Positions 1 through 10,507 of a stretch of DNA of 64,000 bases are shown piece after piece. This DNA is from Streptomyces sp. NBC_00663 (GTDB taxonomy: Bacteria > Actinomycetota > Actinomycetes > Streptomycetales > Streptomycetaceae): NCBI RefSeq assembly GCF_036226885.1, contig NZ_CP109027.1, forward strand, positions 2,852,001 to 2,916,000. The letters run 5' to 3'. A model generated the notes under the pieces. It saw only the letters and a list, made by a program, of their open reading frames with translations. It did not search any database and had not been told where the DNA came from. Position 1 is the first letter of the stretch; each line of letters opens with the position of its first letter. The translations under genes were made by a program, and so were the position numbers.

Positions 1-565
1 CGTTGACCGTGAGCTGGATGGTGAGGTCGCTCGGGTCGAGGTCCGTCTCCACCCAGGGGCCGAGCGGGCAGGAGGTGTCGAAGCCCTTGGCCCGGGCCCA
101 CTGCTTCTCGCGCTTCTGGACGTCACGGGCGGTGATGTCGTTGGCGCAGGTGTAGCCGAGGATGACGTCCTTGACGCGCTCGCGCGGGACCTCGCGGCAC
201 ATGCGGCCGATGACCACGGCCAGCTCGGCCTCGTGGTGGACGTCAGCGGAGAAGGCGGGGTACTGGATCGCGTCGCCGGGGCCGATCACCGAGGTGGACG
301 GCTTGAAGAAGGCGAAGGGGGCGTCGGGGACCTCGTTGCCGAGTTCGCGCGCGTGCTCCGCGTAGTTGCGGCCGTAGGCCACGACCTTGTTGGGGAGCAC
401 CGGCGGCAGCAGCCTGACCTTGCTCAGCGGGACCTTCGTGCCGGAGAGCTCGAAGTCGGCGAACGGGATGCCCTTGATGATGTCGAGGACTAGCTCGTCC
501 GGCTTGTCGCCCTCGACCGCGCCGAAGGCGACGTTCCCGTCGATGGAGAATCTGGCGATGCGCAC
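1..565 (-). CDS. Fumarylacetoacetate hydrolase family protein (partial, 3' end outside window)
   Basis: The reverse strand from a GTG at 565 reads MRIARFSIDGN and runs off the left edge after 188 codons. The family core is visible: a G-R-N-Y-A-E-H-A segment, then HHEAELAVVIG, the acidic metal-ligand motif of FAH/2-hydroxyhepta-2,4-diene-1,7-dioate isomerases, then GYTCANDITARD. Members cleave or isomerise 2-oxo or 1,3-dioxo acids with Mg or Ca in the cytosol. The natural substrate cannot be told from sequence. An AGGAT lies about 4 nt before the GTG. The next gene on this strand, the small peptide at 692-877, ends 126 nt upstream. Confidence 0.88.
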   Translation of the reverse strand, partial: MRIARFSIDGNVAFGAVEGDKPDELVLDIIKGIPFADFELSGTKVPLSKVRLLPPVLPNKVVAYGRNYAEHARELGNEVPDAPFAFFKPSTSVIGPGDAIQYPAFSADVHHEAELAVVIGRMCREVPRERVKDVILGYTCANDITARDVQKREKQWARAKGFDTSCPLGPWVETDLDPSDLTIQLTVN

Positions 566-691: not shown

Positions 692-877
692 CTACTCGGC
701 GGCGGCGGTGACCGGGACGTCCATCAGGATCGTGCGGCGCGGGTTGGCCGTCTGGGCCGGGAGGTCGACGGAGTGCTCCGGGAGCTCCTGGGTCAGCAGG
801 TCGTCGGCGTCCTCGAGGTGCGCCAGCGTCGTGCGCCGCGGGTTGGCTATGTTGCGGAACATCATCGTCGTCTTCAC
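692..877 (-). CDS. Small unrecognised peptide with duplicated ANPRRT motif
   Basis: This is a 61-codon frame beginning GTG-AAG-ACG-ACG-ATG-ATG. Nearly every codon ends in G or C (the visible exception is one ATA), as in real Streptomyces genes. The peptide has no cysteine and contains the same box twice: ANPRRTTL at residues 11-18 and ANPRRTIL at 44-51. Between them lies an acidic, leucine-containing linker; the tail is hydrophobic and alanine-rich (VPVTAAAE). There is no convincing Shine-Dalgarno sequence before the GTG or the tandem ATGs. The frame is open upstream to an in-frame TAG at 917-919 that closes a 9-codon mini-ORF with an excellent RBS. It sits between an FAH gene and the first conservon, transcribed away from the conservon. 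I do not recognise the family. A secreted or processed peptide, or a small regulator, are both possible. Confidence 0.6.
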   Translation of the reverse strand: MKTTMMFRNIANPRRTTLAHLEDADDLLTQELPEHSVDLPAQTANPRRTILMDVPVTAAAE

Positions 878-916: not shown

Positions 917-946
917 CTACGTGTTGTAAAGCGCCAGGCTAAACAT
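917..946 (-). CDS. Nine-codon mini-ORF ahead of the peptide gene
   Basis: ATG at 946 is preceded by GGAGGGG (953-959 on the reverse strand) at ideal spacing, the best ribosome site in this intergenic region. The frame reads MFSLALYNT then TAG (917-919). It is in the same frame as the 692-877 peptide, 23 codons upstream of that GTG. It could be a leader peptide coupling translation to the downstream gene, the true N-terminus of a gene now split by an amber codon, or a chance RBS. Confidence 0.35.
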   Translation of the reverse strand: MFSLALYNT

Positions 947-987: not shown

Positions 988-1001
988 GTGAGTTTGCTCA
1001 C
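988..1001. promoter_or_regulatory. Inverted repeat GTGAG-N4-CTCAC upstream of the peptide gene
   Basis: A perfect 5-bp-arm dyad with spacer TTTG, 42 nt upstream of the mini-ORF start. Further upstream on the reverse strand is a TTGACC (1018-1023) that could be a -35 box, although no clean -10 follows. It is a plausible operator for the peptide transcript. No cognate regulator can be named. Confidence 0.3.
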
Positions 1002-1223
1002 GACCCGAGGGGCAAAGCGGTCAATCCGGGCCCACAACTCACCCCTACGAAACGGACATTGACCCCCTGAAGCCATCATTCCGCTCCTGATCATGGCGAC
1101 TGGGACACCTGCCCCGCGTCAACGTTCCGTAGGCATACGTCCGTTATCGTCCGGATCACTTTCTACGACCGGTAACTCAGCCCTCACGTGCTGTCACGTA
1201 GGTCACGGCCTGACCCACGGCCC

Positions 1224-1252
1224 TTGTTGGAGATCCGGCACTGTGCTGGAAT
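1224..1252 (+). promoter_or_regulatory. Candidate promoter of conservon 1
   Basis: TTGTTG (1224-1229), 17-bp spacer, TGGAAT (1247-1252). The -10 lies in GTGCTGGAAT, a 10-mer that recurs exactly upstream of conservon 2 at 7058-7067, where TTGGAC precedes it by 18 bp. The implied 5' UTR is about 185 nt. Three TCACG repeats lie immediately upstream at 1184-1207. Confidence 0.4.
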
Positions 1253-1443
1253 CTCACGGAACCGCCGCAGGAACGAGCCGGCGCACAGGGGGCGCACCGC
1301 GCGCCTAGTGGCGGCGAGAAGGGGGAACCAGCGCCGGTCACTCACGACCATCGGGGGGCGTAATTCAGGGCGCCCCTCAGTACGCCGACACCGTGCCCTT
1401 CCGTTCACGCGGAGGGGTGCCTGGTCCAGAGGTTGCGACGCTA

Positions 1444-4400
1444 GTGCAGGGACGTTTCAAGAGGGATGGCAGTGCTTCGGCGGAGCCGGAGCCGCACGGC
1501 GGGACTGCCCCCAGCAATGGCAGCTCCTCGCCCCAGCACGCCCAGAACCCGGGCCAGGCGGCGTCCGGCGACGGAGGCACGCGCCCCGGCGCGACGCCCT
1601 CCGGCAGCGCCAAATCCGCCACCCCGGCGGCCAAGCCGTCGAAGAGCCCGACCGGGCCCGGTTCGCGAATAGCGCTGCGCAACTGGCGTATCTCCACGCG
1701 TCTGGTGTCGCTGCTCGCGCTGCCCGTGGTCGCGGCCACCTCGCTGGGCGCGCTGCGCATCAGCGACAACGTGGACGACATCCAGCAGCTCGAGAACATG
1801 AAGCTGCTGACCGACATGACCAAGCAGGCGACGGCCCTGGCCGAGGCGCTGCAGAACGAGCGTGACCAGTCGGCCGGCCCGCTGGCGCACGGCTCCAGCG
1901 CGAGCGACTACACGATCAAGGGTCTGCGGGACAAGACCGACCGCGCGCGCGACGACTTCATCGACTCGTCCGAGGAGATCGACGACCAGGGCAGCGGCCT
2001 CCAGGGCATCCGCGACAACGTGGTGCTCCTGGTCGAGAACCTGCGCTCGGTCGACAAGGTCCGCAACGACGCCTACGAGGCCCAGGGCAACTCCACCCAG
2101 ACCGTGGAGGCCTACCACCGGATCATCACGCAGCTGCTGGACCTCTCGCAGGACATGGCGCAGGCCACCAGCAACCCCGACATGATCCAGCGGACGCGTT
2201 CCCTGGCGGCCTTCTCCGCCGCCAAGGAGTACGCCTCGATCCAGCGCGCCGTCCTCGCCGCGGCCCTGCCCGCGAACAAGACGTCCCTGGGTGACCTCTC
2301 CGAGAACGACCGGCTGTACGCCCAGTCGGCGTTGCAGAGCCAGGACGCCGAACTCCGGAGCTTCCAGTCCATCTACGGCCAGACCGCGGCCGTGGAGCTG
2401 CTGGAGCCCATCAGCGACAACAACACGACCATCCAGTCCTCCGACACCTACGCCAGCCGGGCCCTGGACTCCACCAACGGTCTGGAGAACCTGGACAAGC
2501 GGTCGTACAAGGACTGGCTGGACGACAGCTCGACCAAGATCGACCAGATGGGCAAGATCGAGAGCACGCTGCTCGAGCAGATGGAGCAGAAGGCCCGCGA
2601 GCTGCGCAACGAGTCGGAGAGTGAGGCGATCCTCTCCGGTGCGCTGATCCTGCTCGTGCTCGGTATCTCGCTCGTCGGCGCCTTCGTGGTGGCCCGCTCC
2701 ATGATCCGCTCGCTGCGGCGCCTGGAGGAGACCGCGACCAAGGTCGCCACCGACCGGCTGCCCGAGCTGGTCAAGCAGCTGTCCGAGTCCGACCCGCAGG
2801 ACGTCGACACGTCCGTGGAGTCGGTCGGTGTGCACTCGCGCGACGAGATCGGCAAGGTGGCCGCGGCCTTCGACGACGTGCACCGCGAGGCGGTCCGGCT
2901 CGCCGCCGAGCAGGCCCTGCTGCGGGGCAACGTCAACGCGATGTTCACCAACCTCTCGCGCCGCTCCCAGGGTCTTATCCAGCGCCAGCTGTCGCTGATC
3001 TCCGAGCTCGAGTCCCGTGAGGCCGACCCGGACCAGCTGTCCTCGCTGTTCAAGCTCGACCACCTCGCGACCCGTATGCGCCGTAACGGTGAGAACCTCC
3101 TCGTCCTCGCCGGTGAAGAGCCCGGCCGGCGCTGGACCCGTCCGGTCCCGCTGGTCGACGTGCTCCGCGCCGCCGCCTCCGAGGTGGAGCAGTACGAGCG
3201 CATCGAGCTGGCCTCGGTGCCGACCACCGAAGTCGCCGGCCGTGTGGTCAACGACCTCGTGCACCTCCTCGCCGAGCTGCTCGAGAACGCGACCTCGTTC
3301 TCCTCTCCGCAGACCAAGGTCAAGGTCACCGGTCACGCGCTGCCCGACGGCCGCGTGCTGATCGAGATCCACGACACCGGCATCGGCCTCTCCCCCGAGG
3401 ACCTCGCGGCGATCAACGAGCGGCTGGCCTCGCCGCCCACCGTGGACGTCTCGGTCTCCCGCCGCATGGGTCTGTTCGTGGTCGGTCGTCTGTCGCAGCG
3501 TCACGGCATCCGTATCCAGCTGCGCCCGTCCGACTCCGGTGGTACGACCGCGCTGGTCATGCTGCCCGTCGATGTCGCCCAGGGCGGCAAGAAGCCGCAG
3601 CCCAAGCCCGGTCAGGGTGCGGGTGGCGGTGCGCCGTCCGCCGCGCAGGCGGCCGCCGGGGTGGCCGCGGCCCGTCGGGGCCCGCAGGGCGGCTCTCTCG
3701 GCGCGGGCGCGCCCGCCGGTGGCGGTGCCCTCGGCGCCGGTCCGCAGCCGGGCGGTCTGCTCGGTGCCGGTCAGGGGCCACGGGCCGCGCTGCCCGGCAC
3801 GGGCAACGTCGGTCGTCCGGGTGGTCCGCGTGGTCCCCAGTCCCCGTCCGCTCCTCCGCAGGGCCGGCCCGCTCCGGCCGGTGCGGGTGCCGGCTTCGGT
3901 GGTCAGGCGCCCGGTGCCCCGCAGGGTCTCCAGGCCGCCGGTACCGGTGGTCCGCAGGACGCCTTCGGTGGCGGCCGGCCGCAGCAGTCCGCGCCGTCGG
4001 GTGAGCAGGGCGGCGGTCGTCGTGGCCGTCAGCTTCCTGGCCGCGGTGGTCCGCGGGCCGAGCTGCCGGGCGGCAACCCGCAGCAGTCGCGGCCCAGCTG
4101 GAGCGACGAGAACGCACAGCCGCAGATCTCGCACGCCTCGCTCGACGCCCCGCGCGGCCATGACGAGCAGGACCCGTCGCAGACCTCGCGCATGCCGCGG
4201 ATCGACGACCGGCAGGGCCCGGGCAGCACGTCCGAGTTCCCCCGCCCGGACTTCGACGCCCCCATGCCGGGCACCGGCGGCCCGCAGAACACCGGCCAGT
4301 ACCCCCGCCCGAGCGCGGTGCCCGGTGCACAGGGCTCCGGCCAGTTCGCCCGTCCCGGCACCTCGCAGGACTCCGGCCAGTTCGCGTCGGCGGACTTCGG

Positions 4401-5310
4401 CGGCCCGCAGAGCACCGGCCAGTTCGAGCGGCCTGACTTCGACGCCCCGCAGAACACGGGCCAGTTCGCCCAGCCGGGCGGCAACGCCCAGCAGAGCGGC
4501 ACCGGTTCCTTCGTCCGCCCGGACGTCTTCGGCACCCCGGCCGCGACCGGCCCGTCCGCGACCGGTCAGTTCCCGGTCCCGCAGGGGTACGACAACGGCT
4601 CCACGGGCCAGTTCCCGGCGCCGGGCCACGACAGCAGCTCGACCGGCCAGCACGCGCTGCCGGGCCGCCAGTCCCCCACCGGACCGGCGAACCCGCAGCA
4701 GACCGGCCAGTTCGAGCGGCCGCAGCAGGGTGCCGGACGCAGTCCCGCCGACTTCGGCGCCCCGCAGCGTCCGCAGGCGCAGCGGCCCGTACGCCAGGAG
4801 CCCGAGGCGCTGCCCCCGGCGGCAGGACCCGGTGACGGACGTACGCCGCTGTACGACACCCTGGAGACCAACTGGTTCCACGGTGCACCGGGTCAGCCGG
4901 GCCAGCCGGGCCAGCCGGGTCAGCCCGCGAACGGCAACGGCGCGGCCCCGGCCGCCCCGGCCCAGACCCCCCAGCAGTCGCAGGCTCCGGCCGCTCCCCA
5001 GCGTCCCGCCTCCGCCGCCTGGCGCAGCTCGCCGAACGACGATCTCGTCCGGCAGGCCGAGCGCGTGCGGCAGCCCGCCGCGGGCGGTGTCACCACCTCC
5101 GGCCTGCCGCGCCGGGTGCCCCGGGCGAACCTCGTCCCGGGCACGGCTCAGCAGCAACAGCACCAAGCCGGTCCGGCGGTCTCCCGTGCGCCTGATGACG
5201 TACGCGGCCGTCTGACCAATCTCCGTCGGGGTATCGCACAAGGTCGTCAGGTCGGCGGTAACGGCCAGACGGGCAGCTTCCCGAACCCCACTCACCAGCA
5301 GGAGCGTTAG
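1444..5310 (+). CDS. cvnA: CvnA: membrane sensor-kinase-like protein of conservon 1
   Basis: About 1,288 residues. An acidic and proline-rich N-terminus is followed by a membrane segment (near 85-110), a nitrate-sensor-type (NIT) extracytoplasmic region containing NERDQSAGPLA, a second membrane segment (near 398-420), HAMP, and a GHKL ATPase domain with the N-box LLENATSFSS. There is no clear phospho-accepting H-box, as is usual for CvnA proteins. The last 600 residues are low-complexity Gly/Pro/Gln with about ten TGQ(F/Y/H) units and a GQP tandem repeat, ending in GLPRRVPRANLV and DVRGRLTNLRRG. CvnA is known to assemble with CvnB/C/D in a GPCR-like signalling complex. The frame is open from a GTG at 1393, but AGAGG 11 nt before the GTG at 1444 favours the later start. 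Confidence 0.9.
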   Translation: MQGRFKRDGSASAEPEPHGGTAPSNGSSSPQHAQNPGQAASGDGGTRPGATPSGSAKSATPAAKPSKSPTGPGSRIALRNWRISTRLVSLLALPVVAATSLGALRISDNVDDIQQLENMKLLTDMTKQATALAEALQNERDQSAGPLAHGSSASDYTIKGLRDKTDRARDDFIDSSEEIDDQGSGLQGIRDNVVLLVENLRSVDKVRNDAYEAQGNSTQTVEAYHRIITQLLDLSQDMAQATSNPDMIQRTRSLAAFSAAKEYASIQRAVLAAALPANKTSLGDLSENDRLYAQSALQSQDAELRSFQSIYGQTAAVELLEPISDNNTTIQSSDTYASRALDSTNGLENLDKRSYKDWLDDSSTKIDQMGKIESTLLEQMEQKARELRNESESEAILSGALILLVLGISLVGAFVVARSMIRSLRRLEETATKVATDRLPELVKQLSESDPQDVDTSVESVGVHSRDEIGKVAAAFDDVHREAVRLAAEQALLRGNVNAMFTNLSRRSQGLIQRQLSLISELESREADPDQLSSLFKLDHLATRMRRNGENLLVLAGEEPGRRWTRPVPLVDVLRAAASEVEQYERIELASVPTTEVAGRVVNDLVHLLAELLENATSFSSPQTKVKVTGHALPDGRVLIEIHDTGIGLSPEDLAAINERLASPPTVDVSVSRRMGLFVVGRLSQRHGIRIQLRPSDSGGTTALVMLPVDVAQGGKKPQPKPGQGAGGGAPSAAQAAAGVAAARRGPQGGSLGAGAPAGGGALGAGPQPGGLLGAGQGPRAALPGTGNVGRPGGPRGPQSPSAPPQGRPAPAGAGAGFGGQAPGAPQGLQAAGTGGPQDAFGGGRPQQSAPSGEQGGGRRGRQLPGRGGPRAELPGGNPQQSRPSWSDENAQPQISHASLDAPRGHDEQDPSQTSRMPRIDDRQGPGSTSEFPRPDFDAPMPGTGGPQNTGQYPRPSAVPGAQGSGQFARPGTSQDSGQFASADFGGPQSTGQFERPDFDAPQNTGQFAQPGGNAQQSGTGSFVRPDVFGTPAATGPSATGQFPVPQGYDNGSTGQFPAPGHDSSSTGQHALPGRQSPTGPANPQQTGQFERPQQGAGRSPADFGAPQRPQAQRPVRQEPEALPPAAGPGDGRTPLYDTLETNWFHGAPGQPGQPGQPGQPANGNGAAPAAPAQTPQQSQAPAAPQRPASAAWRSSPNDDLVRQAERVRQPAAGGVTTSGLPRRVPRANLVPGTAQQQQHQAGPAVSRAPDDVRGRLTNLRRGIAQGRQVGGNGQTGSFPNPTHQQER
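4890..4923 (+). repeat. Tandem 9-bp repeats inside cvnA (GQP units)
   Basis: About four units of cagccgggy encode Gly-Gln-Pro repeats in the disordered tail of the first CvnA. This is a likely slippage-prone site whose copy number may vary between strains. Confidence 0.7.
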
Positions 5311-5733
5311 TTGAGCCCGATGAGCCAGGCGGCACAGAACCTCAACTGGTTGATCACCAACTTCGTGGACAACACCCCAGGGGTGTCCCACACCGTCGTC
5401 GTGTCCGCCGACGGTCTTCTGCTGGCGATGTCCGAGGGCTTCCCGCGGGACCGTGCCGACCAGCTGGCGGCCGTCGCGTCGGGCCTGACCTCGCTCACGG
5501 CCGGCGCCTCCCGGATCTTCGAGGGCGGCAACGTGGCACAGACGGTCGTCGAGATGGAACGGGGCTTCCTGTTCCTGATGTCCGTCTCGGACGGCTCGTC
5601 GCTGGCCGTGCTCGCACACCCCGAGTGCGACATCGGCCTCGTCGGCTACGAGATGGCCCTGCTCGTCGACCGCGCGGGTGCGGTGCTCACGCCCGATCTC
5701 CGCGCGGAACTACAAGGCAGTCTGCTTCACTGA
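5311..5733 (+). CDS. cvnB: CvnB: roadblock/LC7 protein of conservon 1
   Basis: 140 residues with one roadblock/LC7 fold (LNWLITNFVDN; VVVSADGLLLAMS; MERGFLFLMSVSDGS). Proteins of this family act as scaffolds or regulators of small Ras-like GTPases, here CvnD. The TTG start at 5311 directly follows the cvnA stop and has GGAG at 6-nt spacing. The paralogue at 10509 begins with GTG at the equivalent codon, which supports this unusual start over the in-frame ATG three codons later. The two CvnB proteins are nearly identical. Confidence 0.92.
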   Translation: MSPMSQAAQNLNWLITNFVDNTPGVSHTVVVSADGLLLAMSEGFPRDRADQLAAVASGLTSLTAGASRIFEGGNVAQTVVEMERGFLFLMSVSDGSSLAVLAHPECDIGLVGYEMALLVDRAGAVLTPDLRAELQGSLLH

Positions 5734-5846
5734 ACCGCCTCGATCCACCCGCCTCACGAAATCACCGTCGGCCGACACAATCCCCCCACCGGCCTCACCA
5801 AGACGGCACGACTGACCGGAAGTTTGCTGTCCCGCCCGGAGGATCA

Positions 5847-6242
5847 ATGACCCCGCCCACCGCCTCTCATGATCCGTACGCGGAGCCGTACGAGGATGAG
5901 GGCGACCAGCCGCTGGTACGTCCGTACGCGATGACCGGCGGCCGGACCCGGCCGCGCTACCAGCTCGCCATAGAGGCCCTGATCAGCACCACGGCCGACC
6001 CGGCGGCACTGATGGGCCTGCTCCCCGAGCATCAGCGCATCTGCCACCTGTGCCGTGAGGTGAAGTCGGTGGCCGAGGTGTCGGCGCTCCTGGCCATGCC
6101 GCTCGGCGTGGCCCGCATCCTCGTCGCGGACCTCGCCGAGGCAGGTCTCGTCGCCATTCACCAGCCGGGCGGCGACGAGAGCACCGGCGCTCCGGACGTG
6201 ACACTGCTCGAAAGGGTGCTCAGTGGACTTCGCAAGCTCTGA
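5847..6242 (+). CDS. cvnC: CvnC: DUF742 protein of conservon 1
   Basis: 131 residues. The DUF742 core runs from RPYAMTGGRTRP through LPEHQRICHLCREVKSVAEVSALL to the winged-helix-like LGVARILVADLAEAGLV, ending VTLLERVLSGLRKL. The ATG at 5847 has a textbook GGAGG five bases upstream, so the longer open frame from 5625 is not used. It lies 113 nt after cvnB and its 3' end overlaps cvnD by 20 nt in another frame, implying translational coupling. The pair of cysteines in ICHLC is conserved in the paralogue. Confidence 0.92.
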   Translation: MTPPTASHDPYAEPYEDEGDQPLVRPYAMTGGRTRPRYQLAIEALISTTADPAALMGLLPEHQRICHLCREVKSVAEVSALLAMPLGVARILVADLAEAGLVAIHQPGGDESTGAPDVTLLERVLSGLRKL

Positions 6243-6798
6243 CGGAGGCCGGGCGACCACCTCCGCGAAGATCGTGGTGGCCGGCGGCTTCGGCGTCGGC
6301 AAGACCACGTTCGTGGGCGCCGTCTCCGAGATCAACCCGCTGCGCACCGAGGCCGTCATGACGTCCGCGTCGGCGGGCATCGACGACCTCACCCACACCG
6401 GGGACAAGACCACCACCACGGTGGCCATGGACTTCGGCCGTATCACCCTGGACCAGGACCTGATCCTGTACCTCTTCGGTACGCCCGGTCAGGACCGCTT
6501 CTGGTTCATGTGGGACGACCTGGTGCGCGGCGCGATCGGCGCGGTGGTCCTGGTGGACACCCGGCGCCTGGCCGACTGCTTCCCCGCGGTCGACTACTTC
6601 GAGAACAGCGGGCTGCCGTTCGTCGTGGCCCTCAACGGTTTCGACGGGCACCAGCCCTACGCACCCGAGGAGGTGCGCGAGGCGCTTCAGATCGGTCCGG
6701 ACACCCCGATCATCACGACGGACGCCCGGCACCGCTCGGATGCGAAGAGTGCCCTGATCACACTGGTTGAGCACGCCCTCATGGCACGTCTGCGATAG
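6223..6798 (+). CDS. cvnD: CvnD: Ras-like small GTPase of conservon 1
   Basis: 191 residues. G1/P-loop GGFGVGKTT near residues 21-29, a G3-like FGTPGQDRF near 86-94 (TPGQ where Ras has DTAGQ), and NGFD near 138 at the G4 position (where Ras has NKxD). These changes are usual for conservon/MglA-like GTPases. It is the GTP-switch output of the CvnA-CvnB-CvnC complex at the membrane. The GTG start lies inside cvnC. Bases 6331-6543 are identical to 11711-11923 of the second cvnD, while the flanking DNA has diverged at silent positions. Confidence 0.92.
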   Translation: MDFASSDGGRATTSAKIVVAGGFGVGKTTFVGAVSEINPLRTEAVMTSASAGIDDLTHTGDKTTTTVAMDFGRITLDQDLILYLFGTPGQDRFWFMWDDLVRGAIGAVVLVDTRRLADCFPAVDYFENSGLPFVVALNGFDGHQPYAPEEVREALQIGPDTPIITTDARHRSDAKSALITLVEHALMARLR

Positions 6799-7177: not shown

Positions 7178-10100
7178 GTGAGGCGAAGCAAGAACGGTCC
7201 CGAGCCGTCGGCCCGGGGCAACTTCACCCCGCCGCCGCGCGGAGCGGCGCCCGCCCCTGTGCCCGGATCCGAACCAACGGCTGCTCCGGCGCCGAGCGGT
7301 GGTCGGCTGTCCCCCCGTAACTGGCGGGTGCCCACCAGGCTGAACGCGATCCTGCTCATACCCGTGCTGGTCGGCCTCGTCATGGGCGGCTTCCAGGTGA
7401 AGAGCTCGATCGACACCTGGACGGAGGCCGAGAACGCCGAGAAGACCGCGCGCCTGGTCCAGGCCGCGCTCACCTACGGCGACGCCCTCTACACCGAGCG
7501 GGACAGCACCGCCGCCCCGCTCCTGGAGGGCAAGGGCGAGGACGACAAGACGGTCGTCGCCGCCCGCAAGGCCACGGACAACGCCGCCGACGCCTTCGAC
7601 GAGGCCGCCCAGAACATGCCGCAGACGGCGGGTCTCCAGCGCCGCCTCCAGCTGTTCCGCGACAGCGAGGCGGGCCTCCAGGCCCTGCGCACGAACGCCT
7701 ACACGAGCCGGCTCAAAGGCGTGCAGACCGAAGAGGGCTATGTAGCGGTCGCGCACCCCCTGATGGAGTTCGCCAACGAGCTCGGTCTGGGCACCGGAAA
7801 CATCACCAGCTACGGCCGTACCGTCTACGCGATCGCGCTCACCAAGGCGTCTCTGTCCCTGGAGCGCGCCATCGGTATGCACCTGCTGATCGCCCCGGGC
7901 CCCAAGCCCGCGGACCTGGCCGCCCAGCGCACCGCGCTCACCTCGTACGCCTACCTCGAGGGCATCGCCATCGAGGAGTACATCGGCGGCGGCACCGAGG
8001 CCGATGCCGCGAAGCTGAAGTCGCTCCAGGCGCAGGCCCTCACCGAGGGCAAGACGATGGCCCAGGACGCCGCGAAGCAGAACCCGAACTATGTGCCGGC
8101 GCCGACGACCGACACGGCCGAGTTCGTCAAGTACGTGGGCAGTATCAGCTCCACGGACGAGACCGAGCGCCAGACGCTCGCCGCCAAGGGCGTCACGGCC
8201 AACAACTGGTGGGCGTTCAACACCCTCAAGTACAAGACCTACCGGACCATCGAGTCCGACATGGCCGACAAGGCGGTGAGCGAGGCCGCGAGCATCGCCG
8301 ACGAGGCCAAGCGTGACGCCTTCATCACCGGTGCCGCCGTGGTCGTCGCCCTGCTCGCCGCGTTCATCCTGGCCGGCATGGTGGCCCGCCAGATGTCCCG
8401 CGCCATGCGCCAGCTGCGCAACGCCGCCTTCGGCATCGCCGAGCAGCGGCTGCCGATGCTGGTCGACCAGCTCTCGCGTACCGACCCCGGCCGCGTCGAC
8501 ACCCGGGTGCAGGCCATCCCGATCAACTCGACCGACGAGATCGGCGAGGTCGCCCGCGCCTTCGACCAGGTCCACCGCGAGGCCGTCCGGCTCGCCGCCG
8601 AGCAGGCGCTGCTGCGGGGCAACATCAACGCGATCTTCACCAACCTGTCGCGCCGCAACCAGTCGCTGATCGAGGGCCAGCTGACCCTGATCACCGAACT
8701 GGAGAACAACGAGGCCGACCCGGACCAGCTGGAGAACCTCTTCCGCCTGGACCACCTCGCGACCCGTATGCGCCGCAACGGCGAGAACCTCCTGGTCCTC
8801 GCCGGCGAGGAGCCCGGCCGCCGCTGGGACCAGCCGGTCCCGCTGGTCGACGTGCTCCGCGCCGCCTCCTCCGAGGTGGAGCAGTACGAGCGCATCGAGC
8901 TCTCCGGCGTCCCGGAGGCCGAGATCCACGGCCGCGCCGTGACCGACCTCGTGCACCTGCTGGCCGAGCTGCTGGAGAACGCCACCACGTTCTCCTCCCC
9001 GCAGACCAAGGTCCGCGTCACCGCGACCCGCCTCCCCGACGGCCGCGTGATGATCGAGATCCACGACAAGGGCATCGGCCTCACCGCCGAGGACTTCGCG
9101 GACATCAACCACAAGCTGGCCAACCCGCCGACCGTGGACGCCGCGATCTCCCAGCGCATGGGCCTGTTCGTGGTCGGCCGACTGTCCGACCGGCACGGCA
9201 TCCGCGTCCAGCTCCGCCCCTCCGGCGAGCAGGCCGGCACCACCTCGCTGGTCATGCTGCCCGACGCGATCACCCACGGTGGCGGTGGCGAGCAGCAGGC
9301 GCCGGTCGACGAGTTCACCGTCTCGCAGATCATCCCGGAGCAGCAGCAGTACCACGGCGAGGACTTCAACAACGGTCTGCCCATGCGGACCGCCGCCGAG
9401 CTGGGCTTCGACGACAGCCGCTACAACCCCGAGATCCCCGACGACATCCGTGAGCTGGACCCGGTGGGCCGCTCCCTGATGCGCGAGGAGCGCCGCGCGG
9501 CCCTGGAGGCCCAGGCGCACCCCACGGAGCCCGGCCAGGAAACGCCCGCGGCCCCGTCGTACGGCAACGAGTTCGACGGCCGTCCGGCCGCGTACGACAA
9601 CGGCCAGAACAGCCAGAGCGGCTACCAGGAGCCCGCCTCGTACGAGGAGCAGCAGCAGTCGGCGTACGCCGACCCGCAGCGCGCCGCGTACGAGGAGCAG
9701 CAGCAGCCGTCGTACGACGGGCAGTACTACGCGCCGAACGGCGGCCTGCCGCAGAACGACACCTTCTCGTCGAACGGCGGCGGCTACCCCGAGCCCTCGT
9801 ATGCGGAACCGGTCCAGGAGGAGTCCCCGGCCGGCCACGCCTCCGCCCCGGAGTCCTTCCCGGCCTTCGAGGAGCGCCGCTACCAGGACGACTGGCCGCA
9901 GCAGGACAGCTACCAGAACGGTTACCAGGACCAGTACGCTCCCGAAGCGGAATCCACGCAGGCCGCTGACGTGAGTGAGCGCGACCACGTAGGCTTCGAC
10001 CGTCCCGGTCCGGGCCCGTCGGCCGCGCACGAGCTGACCGACGCCGGCCTTCCCCGTCGCGGATCAGGCGCCGGCGGAGCGAACGGCACGAGCAGCGCGA

Positions 10101-10507
10101 ACGGCACGGGCGCCGGCACCACCGACATGTTCGGCGCGCGGACCGTGAACCCGCAGCCGACGCCCTCCGCACCGGAGAGCAACGGCAACGGCAGCAGCAA
10201 CGGAACCGGCAACGGTGACTGGCGCTCGGCCAACGACGCGCGCTGGCAGCAGGCTTCGGCGCTCAAGAAGCCCAAGGCGGGCGGGGTCACCTCCTCCGGT
10301 CTGCCGAGGCGGGTACCCAAGGCCAACCTGGTCGAGGGTGCCGCCGAAACCACCCCCCAGGGGGGCCCACAGGTCTCCCGCGCTCCCGAGGACGTCCGGG
10401 GCAGGCTGAGCAACCTGCGCCGCGGGGTCCAGCGGGGTCGAAGCGCAGGAAGTGAAACGAACGGCCAGGGCCTCGGTCCTGACAGCACCTACAACCAGGA
10501 GCGTTAG
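7178..10507 (+). CDS. cvnA: CvnA: membrane sensor-kinase-like protein of conservon 2
   Basis: 1,109 residues with the same plan as its paralogue: basic/proline N-terminus, membrane segment near 50-68, nitrate-sensor-like extracytoplasmic region, second membrane segment near 385-402, HAMP, and a GHKL ATPase domain with LLENATTFSSPQ and GIGL. The tail is low-complexity, but here rich in Tyr/Gln/Glu (YEEQQQ, YQNGYQD) rather than TGQF. The C-terminal boxes GLPRRVPKANLV and DVRGRLSNLRRG are kept, so these are probably a partner-binding or membrane-proximal element. The GTG at 7178 has GAGAGG upstream. It is separated from cvnB by one base. Confidence 0.9.
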   Translation: MRRSKNGPEPSARGNFTPPPRGAAPAPVPGSEPTAAPAPSGGRLSPRNWRVPTRLNAILLIPVLVGLVMGGFQVKSSIDTWTEAENAEKTARLVQAALTYGDALYTERDSTAAPLLEGKGEDDKTVVAARKATDNAADAFDEAAQNMPQTAGLQRRLQLFRDSEAGLQALRTNAYTSRLKGVQTEEGYVAVAHPLMEFANELGLGTGNITSYGRTVYAIALTKASLSLERAIGMHLLIAPGPKPADLAAQRTALTSYAYLEGIAIEEYIGGGTEADAAKLKSLQAQALTEGKTMAQDAAKQNPNYVPAPTTDTAEFVKYVGSISSTDETERQTLAAKGVTANNWWAFNTLKYKTYRTIESDMADKAVSEAASIADEAKRDAFITGAAVVVALLAAFILAGMVARQMSRAMRQLRNAAFGIAEQRLPMLVDQLSRTDPGRVDTRVQAIPINSTDEIGEVARAFDQVHREAVRLAAEQALLRGNINAIFTNLSRRNQSLIEGQLTLITELENNEADPDQLENLFRLDHLATRMRRNGENLLVLAGEEPGRRWDQPVPLVDVLRAASSEVEQYERIELSGVPEAEIHGRAVTDLVHLLAELLENATTFSSPQTKVRVTATRLPDGRVMIEIHDKGIGLTAEDFADINHKLANPPTVDAAISQRMGLFVVGRLSDRHGIRVQLRPSGEQAGTTSLVMLPDAITHGGGGEQQAPVDEFTVSQIIPEQQQYHGEDFNNGLPMRTAAELGFDDSRYNPEIPDDIRELDPVGRSLMREERRAALEAQAHPTEPGQETPAAPSYGNEFDGRPAAYDNGQNSQSGYQEPASYEEQQQSAYADPQRAAYEEQQQPSYDGQYYAPNGGLPQNDTFSSNGGGYPEPSYAEPVQEESPAGHASAPESFPAFEERRYQDDWPQQDSYQNGYQDQYAPEAESTQAADVSERDHVGFDRPGPGPSAAHELTDAGLPRRGSGAGGANGTSSANGTGAGTTDMFGARTVNPQPTPSAPESNGNGSSNGTGNGDWRSANDARWQQASALKKPKAGGVTSSGLPRRVPKANLVEGAAETTPQGGPQVSRAPEDVRGRLSNLRRGVQRGRSAGSETNGQGLGPDSTYNQER

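Follow-up and report, generated by a model that had tools for sequence, protein, structure and literature searches.

Positions 692-877 of the window, by which we mean the whole stretch of 64,000 nucleotides of Streptomyces sp. NBC_00663 that was analysed, encode a real, conserved protein in which two short, nearly identical boxes flank an acidic linker. The overall reading that we favour, tentatively, is that this small protein is a disordered, bivalent linear-motif ligand, perhaps set in Cvn1 developmental signalling. Its gene is a near-universal, single-copy gene of a model bacterial family, for which no family match was obtained in the libraries searched and no function was found in the literature, and its control region is reported to be bound by several developmental master regulators. 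Conservon signalling is poorly understood, and the invariant double box provides a ready handle.

A conserved 61-codon gene with two boxes

The gene and its parts were read as follows.

692..877, minus strand: gene of the small two-box protein; 61 codons, beginning with GTG at 877 and closed by TAG (open-frame reading and profile matches)
824..847, minus strand: box 1, ANPRRTTL, residues 11-18
749..823, minus strand: acidic linker, whose sequence and length vary among genera
725..748, minus strand: box 2, ANPRRTIL, residues 44-51

The encoded protein reads VKTTMMFRNI-ANPRRTTL-AHLEDADDLLTQELPEHSVDLPAQT-ANPRRTIL-MDVPVTAAAE (61 residues, window minus strand), and the box-to-box distance in it is 33 residues. 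A 61-codon frame with two copies of ANPRRT(T/I)L at this distance, separated by an acidic linker, had been described in an earlier, sequence-only reading, and all of these elements were confirmed from the sequence. The Streptomyces-like codon bias claimed there is borne out by third positions that are 98% G+C; the full pattern, 69/44/98% G+C on codon positions 1/2/3, is typical of Streptomyces coding DNA. The repeat had also been considered unlikely by chance; shuffling the peptide 200,000 times gave an exact 6-residue repeat in 26 cases. Conservation is stronger evidence for a gene than these shuffle odds; the sequence-only reading had proposed looking for loss of the frame in close relatives, and when this was done the frame was found to be kept, so the claim stands. 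The GTG start is supported by the presence of an ATG there in 18 of 81 relatives, in one of these three codons upstream. The possibility that a conserved ATG-TTTAGCC block provides a start further upstream was dismissed, since in the window the frame from it reaches a TAG after nine codons (by eye). In its own genome the gene is single-copy, the other two matches having E values of 0.395 and 2.2, and an ungapped search of that genome for DNA encoding N-P-R-R-T-x-[L-like] returned the two boxes and two other places.

Relatives of the gene were collected by a contig scan that yielded at least 405 encoding stretches, of which 80 were kept (79 titled Streptomyces and 1 Kitasatospora). In the 81 aligned frames (own genome plus relatives) the ANPRRT boxes are invariant save for one K in box 2, an invariance that owes partly to the pattern-based finding of these loci. 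Substitutions in codons 2-28 amounted to 2.6/8.0/16.0% on codon positions 1/2/3 across 79 close-relative comparisons, the median dN/dS of the gene was 0.35 (3,240 pairs), and the box codons differ synonymously among relatives, with a codon mix in box 1 unlike that in box 2. Openness of the frame alone is little proof, because high G+C leaves other frames open almost as frequently in the 81 loci (antisense 80 and 76 of 81, sense +2 78 of 81), and the 81 small-gene frames were themselves selected for being open.

A broader alignment, A2, comprises 25 rows from across genera, 21 of them hand-picked from frames having AN..RT in both boxes, and has a mean column identity of 33%. Invariant in it are the A, N, P, second R and T of box 1 and, at box 2, T, A, N, the second R and T; the order, spacing and two-box tests demanded AN..RT in both boxes, so in the frames of those tests these four positions are invariant by construction. 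Exactly two boxes were present in 137 of 138 unique frames, and the frame with a third box, L125, has it upstream of the conserved start. The boxes are spaced by 33 residues in 105 of the 138, with a range of 30-54 residues, which argues against a rigid fold between them. The linker has a median net charge of -5 (138 unique frames) and is rich in A, L, E, P and D. Box 1 stands mostly in the context IANPRRTTLAH and box 2 mostly in TANPRRT[IV]LM[ED]. The earlier suggestion of two equivalent sites therefore holds in part: two recognition-type boxes are conserved, but their flanks consistently differ.

AlphaFold2, run with 25 close relatives, gave no confident fold (mean pLDDT 59.1, pTM 0.17, one four-residue helix), although such a run may miss a fold formed on binding or given a deeper alignment. 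According to this model the small protein is probably intrinsically disordered, and a loose chain that bears two short conserved boxes and yields no confident fold would have the build of a bivalent linear-motif protein.

That no described family with this layout is known, as had been remarked from the letters of the DNA, agrees with Pfam, NCBIfam and the PDB, which gave no useful match. For the window protein there were 0 matches in Pfam at E <= 10 and 0 in NCBIfam; a search of 25 members against NCBIfam gave one weak TonB match (E 0.063), and the A2 profile gave 0 matches in the PDB at E <= 10. Rfam had no match, and plasmid and phage collections had none at E <= 1. The string 'ANPRRT' was not found in the openly licensed literature (supplements excluded), and neither were SCO5545, vnz_25885 or SVEN_5240 as single names, of which the latter two are guesses based on gene numbering; the pair entry sco5544-5545 does stand in PMC4595836.

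The cvn1 locus and its shared control region

The neighbours of the small gene in the window are the following.

2..565, minus strand: FAH-family gene (Rv2993c-like) downstream of the small gene, incomplete at the window edge; not always adjacent
1393..5310, plus strand: cvnA1-type sensor (NIT, HAMP, HATPase_c; domain matches), divergent neighbour, start uncertain
5311..5733, plus strand: cvnB1 (roadblock/LC7; domain match)
5844..6242, plus strand: cvnC1 (DUF742; domain match), start uncertain
6223..6798, plus strand: cvnD1 (ATP_bind_1 domain match; small GTPase-type by conservon definition)

Upstream of the small gene lie two tandem conservons, each with a NIT-HAMP-HATPase CvnA, a roadblock CvnB, a DUF742 CvnC and an ATP/GTP-binding CvnD; the HAMP match is slightly under the cut-off in both CvnA proteins, and the NIT sensory domain of CvnA1 matches with E 2.7e-44. 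The earlier description of the gene as lying beside the conservons can be refined, in that it is divergent from cvnA1. In 146 of 147 loci (141 by an automated order test and 5 read from its table) cvnA1 divergently adjoins the two-box frame, the sole exception being a chance match, L151; the FAH gene also lies on the other side, on the same strand as the small gene, in 141 of the 147. Some of these loci are near-duplicates, since only 127 distinct box-to-box strings occur among them, and loci of this set with cvnA1, the small gene and FAH show no order other than the usual one. In L208 (genome G044) and L209 (genome G269) the tandem conservons and the small gene are together inverted relative to FAH, and in G322 and G083 the small gene and FAH stand about 1.8 kb apart, with cvnA1 still adjacent to the small gene; thus the small gene stays with cvnA1 in four of the four genomes in which it is parted from FAH. 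L063, a fifth locus without FAH, is at a contig end. Between the small gene and FAH the scan gave no consensus terminator; a hairpin there has a z of -1.94, with 10 of 200 shuffles folding as well, and the region is poorly conserved.

The low-complexity C-terminal tail of CvnA1 (window 5068-5157) contains a strongly conserved segment, GGVTTSGLPRRVPRANLVPGTAQ, with SGLPRR in 71 of 84 CvnA1 frames, and CvnA2 (window 7178-10507) has a segment similar to it. Judging by its letters, the conserved tail segment looks like another docking motif. The LPRR of this tail was considered as the thing that the boxes mimic and was set aside: G015, a genome without the peptide, keeps LPRR, and tail and boxes share only PRR.

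Between the small gene and cvnA1 the following conserved or candidate elements were located.

936..943, minus strand: conserved TTTAGCCT, possible -10 element (TAGCCT) of the small gene (in 76/81 loci)
988..1001, no strand assigned: palindrome GTGAGCAAACTCAC, CRP/GlxR-like GTG(N)8CAC (GTGA-N6-TCAC in 81/81 loci)
1059..1082, minus strand: counterpart, by alignment, of the possible ScbR2 site listed for S. coelicolor sco5544-5545
1083..1110, minus strand: conserved block AGGTGTCCCAGTCGCCATGATCAGGAGC, which holds GTGTC (reverse of the WhiA motif GACAC); candidate only
1184..1196, minus strand: BldD box TGACAGCACGTGA, fits TNAC(N)5GTNA (aligned in 78/81 loci, somewhere upstream in 81/81)
1222..1251, plus strand: conserved 30-base block on the cvnA1 side with CCAGCACAG core (80/81 loci, also G015)

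The conserved TTTAGCCT may be a promoter element of the small gene, and a sigma-70 consensus scan of the region gave no match; the block at 1222..1251 may be where the cvnA1 promoter lies. The palindrome conforms to GTG(N)8CAC, the form known for GlxR, and is without the G of the S. coelicolor Crp motif GTG(N)6GNCAC (both forms as given in PMC10033298). Its GTGA-N6-TCAC pattern recurs in 21 of 29 further Streptomycetaceae loci, mostly of other genera, and both it and the CCAGCACAG block are absent from the most diverged gene-bearing loci of the family (L145-L150, L152). The palindrome is not specific to the small gene, because GTGA-N6-TCAC is kept in G015 and absent from the most diverged gene-bearing loci. 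The WhiA motif and the BldD consensus used here are those of PMC3781837 (GACAC) and PMC4151990 (TNAC(N)5GTNA), respectively. Shuffling the window stretch base by base gave a BldD box in 6% of cases and the palindrome in 0.35%, so the BldD evidence is conservation of position, not presence. At the predicted ScbR2 site the window has GGAATGATGGCTTCAGGGGGTCAA (1082-1059) against the published GGAATGATGCCTTCAGGTGTGCAA, and some relatives have GGAATGATGGCTTCAGGTGTGCAA. The sco5544-5545 promoter is listed among the EMSA-confirmed ScbR2 targets, with GGAATGATGCCTTCAGGTGTGCAA as the authors' prediction within it, and in the scbR2 mutant expression of sco5544 and sco5545 hardly changed (fold 1.024 and 0.952, PMC4595836).

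Published work on cvn1 bears on the same region. cvnA1 is reported as a BldC and BldD target and WhiAB as binding the cvn1 promoter (PMC6428758), and a figure legend names cvnA1/sven5239 among the WhiB targets (PMC4850268). Aerial mycelium is reported to be impaired in a cvn1 mutant (Takano 2011, as cited in PMC6428758), and CvnA1 is described as acting via SigU, positively, on antibiotic production and aerial mycelium (PMC9739842). The cvn1 genes are reported to be repressed by ppGpp synthesis (PMC2374992) and by cell-wall antibiotics (PMC3123327). Together with the conserved sites, these reports suggest that the small gene itself may be controlled by BldD, BldC, WhiA/WhiB and ScbR2-type regulators.

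Distribution within and outside Streptomycetaceae

Profile A1, whose rows came from the contig scan (the patterns of which included ANPRRTTL and AQTANPRR), matched 291 of 297 Streptomycetaceae genomes at E <= 0.01, at one place each save for a few split matches; these are genomes counted by profile match, not by reading each locus. Four genomes without an A1 match (G001, G018, G020 and G029) carry a diverged two-box frame at the same position in the locus, and a profile match or a two-box frame was found in 295 of the 297. The assembly of G138, also without an A1 match, is 71% complete, and in G015 cvnA1 and FAH lie side by side with no two-box frame between them, the gene being absent. Both boxes were held by 29 of 30 best-per-genome loci from a profile search that did not demand boxes; L151, the 30th, does not have both boxes and was set aside as the chance match mentioned above.

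Several loci stand out in their own right. In L130 (G258) and L132 (G110), both of the window's genus, both boxes are altered, to ANPQRT with ANARRT or ANVRRT, and the reader has perhaps changed alongside. The two-box frame of L142 (G057) stops just past box 2 (TANPRRTVR, then a stop), and is perhaps a truncated copy or a sequencing error. The G015 locus (L198), with cvnA1 and FAH adjacent and no small gene, is a natural knockout for comparison.

Among 354 genomes of the same class outside Streptomycetaceae, the best E obtained with profile A1 was only 0.0054; the broader A2 gave weak matches in 35 of these 354 (E 9.9e-4 to 0.05) and, on the positive side, matched 40 of 40 Streptomycetaceae genomes. 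Matches at E <= 10 turned up in 12 of 15 genomes from other families of the order (best E 0.077), and the two-box test found no two-box frame at 15 loci of those matches. The same test found none at 19 loci round outgroup FAH genes (10 plus 9 wider ones, partly the same genes) and none at 28 loci round cvnA relatives of 16 non-family genomes, cvnA relatives being present in 16 of the 16 searched. Nine non-family FAH regions of 7-9 kb contained neither a cvnA1 match nor a two-box frame. On its positive controls (Streptomycetaceae locus sets) the two-box test recovered 80/80, 66/67, 5/5 and 8/8; because these controls were partly chosen by the same boxes, the test is blind to a partner whose boxes differ. 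Outside Streptomycetaceae the genomes searched yielded no convincing relative.

Proposed bivalent docking, rival readings and known systems

In the mechanism that we propose, both ANPRRT-x-L boxes would fit pockets of one kind, and the acidic linker, tolerant of changes in length, would allow simultaneous contact with two subunits of a partner, dimeric or oligomeric, which the small protein would bridge or block. Its expression would be driven from the control region common to cvnABCD1, with BldD, BldC, WhiA/WhiB and ScbR2-type regulators in charge, and it would modulate the Cvn1 proteins or what they put out. That the boxes dock bivalently on some protein seems to us somewhat probable; that the docking partner is a Cvn1 component is the weakest step, and doubtful. 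A Cvn1 protein would be the first partner candidate because the small gene remains next to cvn1 and the two have one control region, and CvnA-type kinases and roadblock proteins are usually dimers. The putative role as an adaptor for conservon complexes, raised earlier as one of several options, gains from the linkage to cvnA1. Against a Cvn1 partnership, conservons exist without a two-box peptide (16/16 non-family genomes; 28 loci), and the small protein is dispensable in G015, since cvnA1 is kept there without the gene. Against a joint role, the gene named in published ChIP data is cvnA1 and not the small one, and neighbours that diverge from one another can act separately. It is rather unlikely, though worth stating, that the peptide represents a new class of conservon regulator, arising at the Streptomycetaceae stem, clamping or competing in a dimeric Cvn1 G-protein-type complex and linking BldD/c-di-GMP and gamma-butyrolactone-type signals to Cvn1 output by way of its ANPRRT-x-L motif. 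Were Cvn1 its target, the small protein would join CvnE and CvnF as a conservon partner of a third kind; if Cvn1 is not the target, the box reader is worth finding for itself.

Other readings of the boxes were weighed against docking on a protein. The S/T-P-K/R-K/R turn enters the DNA minor groove, and if the N-P-R-R turns, which can be likened to it, did the same, the peptide would bind nucleic acid as a two-pronged nucleoid- or operator-associated protein. Both boxes are basic, their Asn-Pro start could form a capped turn, and a flexible linker with two prongs would suit DNA; nevertheless, we regard this as unlikely, as the linker is acidic, no match to a known DNA-binding family was found (Pfam, NCBIfam), and conservation also covers the A ahead of N-P-R-R, the T behind it and the leucine two positions past that T. 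Such conservation past N-P-R-R makes the box look more like a protein-pocket ligand. A phospho-switch, in which the box Thr after R-R would be phosphorylated by a basophilic Ser/Thr kinase and bound by an FHA-type or other reader, draws on the resemblance of R-R-T-[TIV]-L to basophilic kinase sites and on the invariance of that Thr in the cross-genus A2 alignment, but A and N are equally invariant, beyond what a kinase site needs, and we judge it quite improbable.

The remaining alternatives concern what the gene is for, or whether it is one. A RiPP precursor or processed extracellular signal, with the box as core or cleavage site, had been put forward in the sequence-only reading, and the small size, the duplicated octapeptide and a control region that is an ScbR2 target in S. 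coelicolor (PMC4595836) would fit it. However, box 1 begins at residue 11, leaving almost no leader, the sequence lacks Cys and, by eye, shows no clear hydrophobic signal stretch, NCBIfam gave no match, and cvn1 and the FAH-family gene are the immediate neighbours in 141 of 147 loci, with no adjacent maturation enzyme. The gene is moreover present in nearly every Streptomycetaceae genome sampled, whereas typical RiPP clusters are not near-universal in a family; given these neighbours, this carriage and the lack of a signal stretch, the proposal is very unlikely and we do not retain it. Service to the downstream FAH-family gene instead of cvn1 would accord with FAH following on the same strand in those 141 loci and with a scan that gave no consensus terminator between the two genes, yet in L208 and L209 the small gene is with cvn1, inverted away from FAH, two other genomes have the gap of about 1.8 kb, and outside Streptomycetaceae nine of nine FAH regions lack cvnA1 and the two-box frame, which together render it highly improbable. 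The idea that the stretch is conserved regulatory or antisense DNA that reads as a peptide by chance draws on the several frames that high G+C keeps open; the codon-position bias of changes, the synonymous drift in the boxes, a protein sequence that is conserved among genera despite a mean column identity of 33%, and Rfam's lack of a match leave it scarcely credible.

The docking reading can be set beside systems already described. In S. coelicolor, SCO5545 is, like the small gene, the divergent neighbour of cvnA1, and the possible ScbR2 site of that pair aligns with window 1082-1059; Table 2 of PMC4595836 lists it with cvnA1 as 'Putative uncharacterized protein'. From position and regulatory DNA, rather than from protein sequence, SCO5545 is probably the orthologue of the small gene, and SCO5546, probably the FAH gene, is listed as an orphan in PMC3224560. 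CvnE and CvnF resemble the small protein in being a small extra component genetically tied to a conservon, and it might likewise tune its CvnA. PMC13343842 describes CvnE as a cytochrome P450 and CvnF as a GAF protein, whereas the small protein has no Pfam domain; the same source has CvnE and CvnF going with a CvnA without a sensory domain, whereas CvnA1 here has NIT. Synteny with a cvnA is seen here too (146/147 loci), yet the small gene is divergent and outside the operon. As far as its sequence tells, the small protein is not a CvnE or CvnF. We know of no docking motif that ANPRRT matches, and a description of the family was found nowhere in the literature and libraries searched. The nearest likeness is to the class of bivalent short-linear-motif proteins, in which a short motif likewise occurs twice on a loose linker of variable length, and we infer that the small protein is of this linear-motif type.
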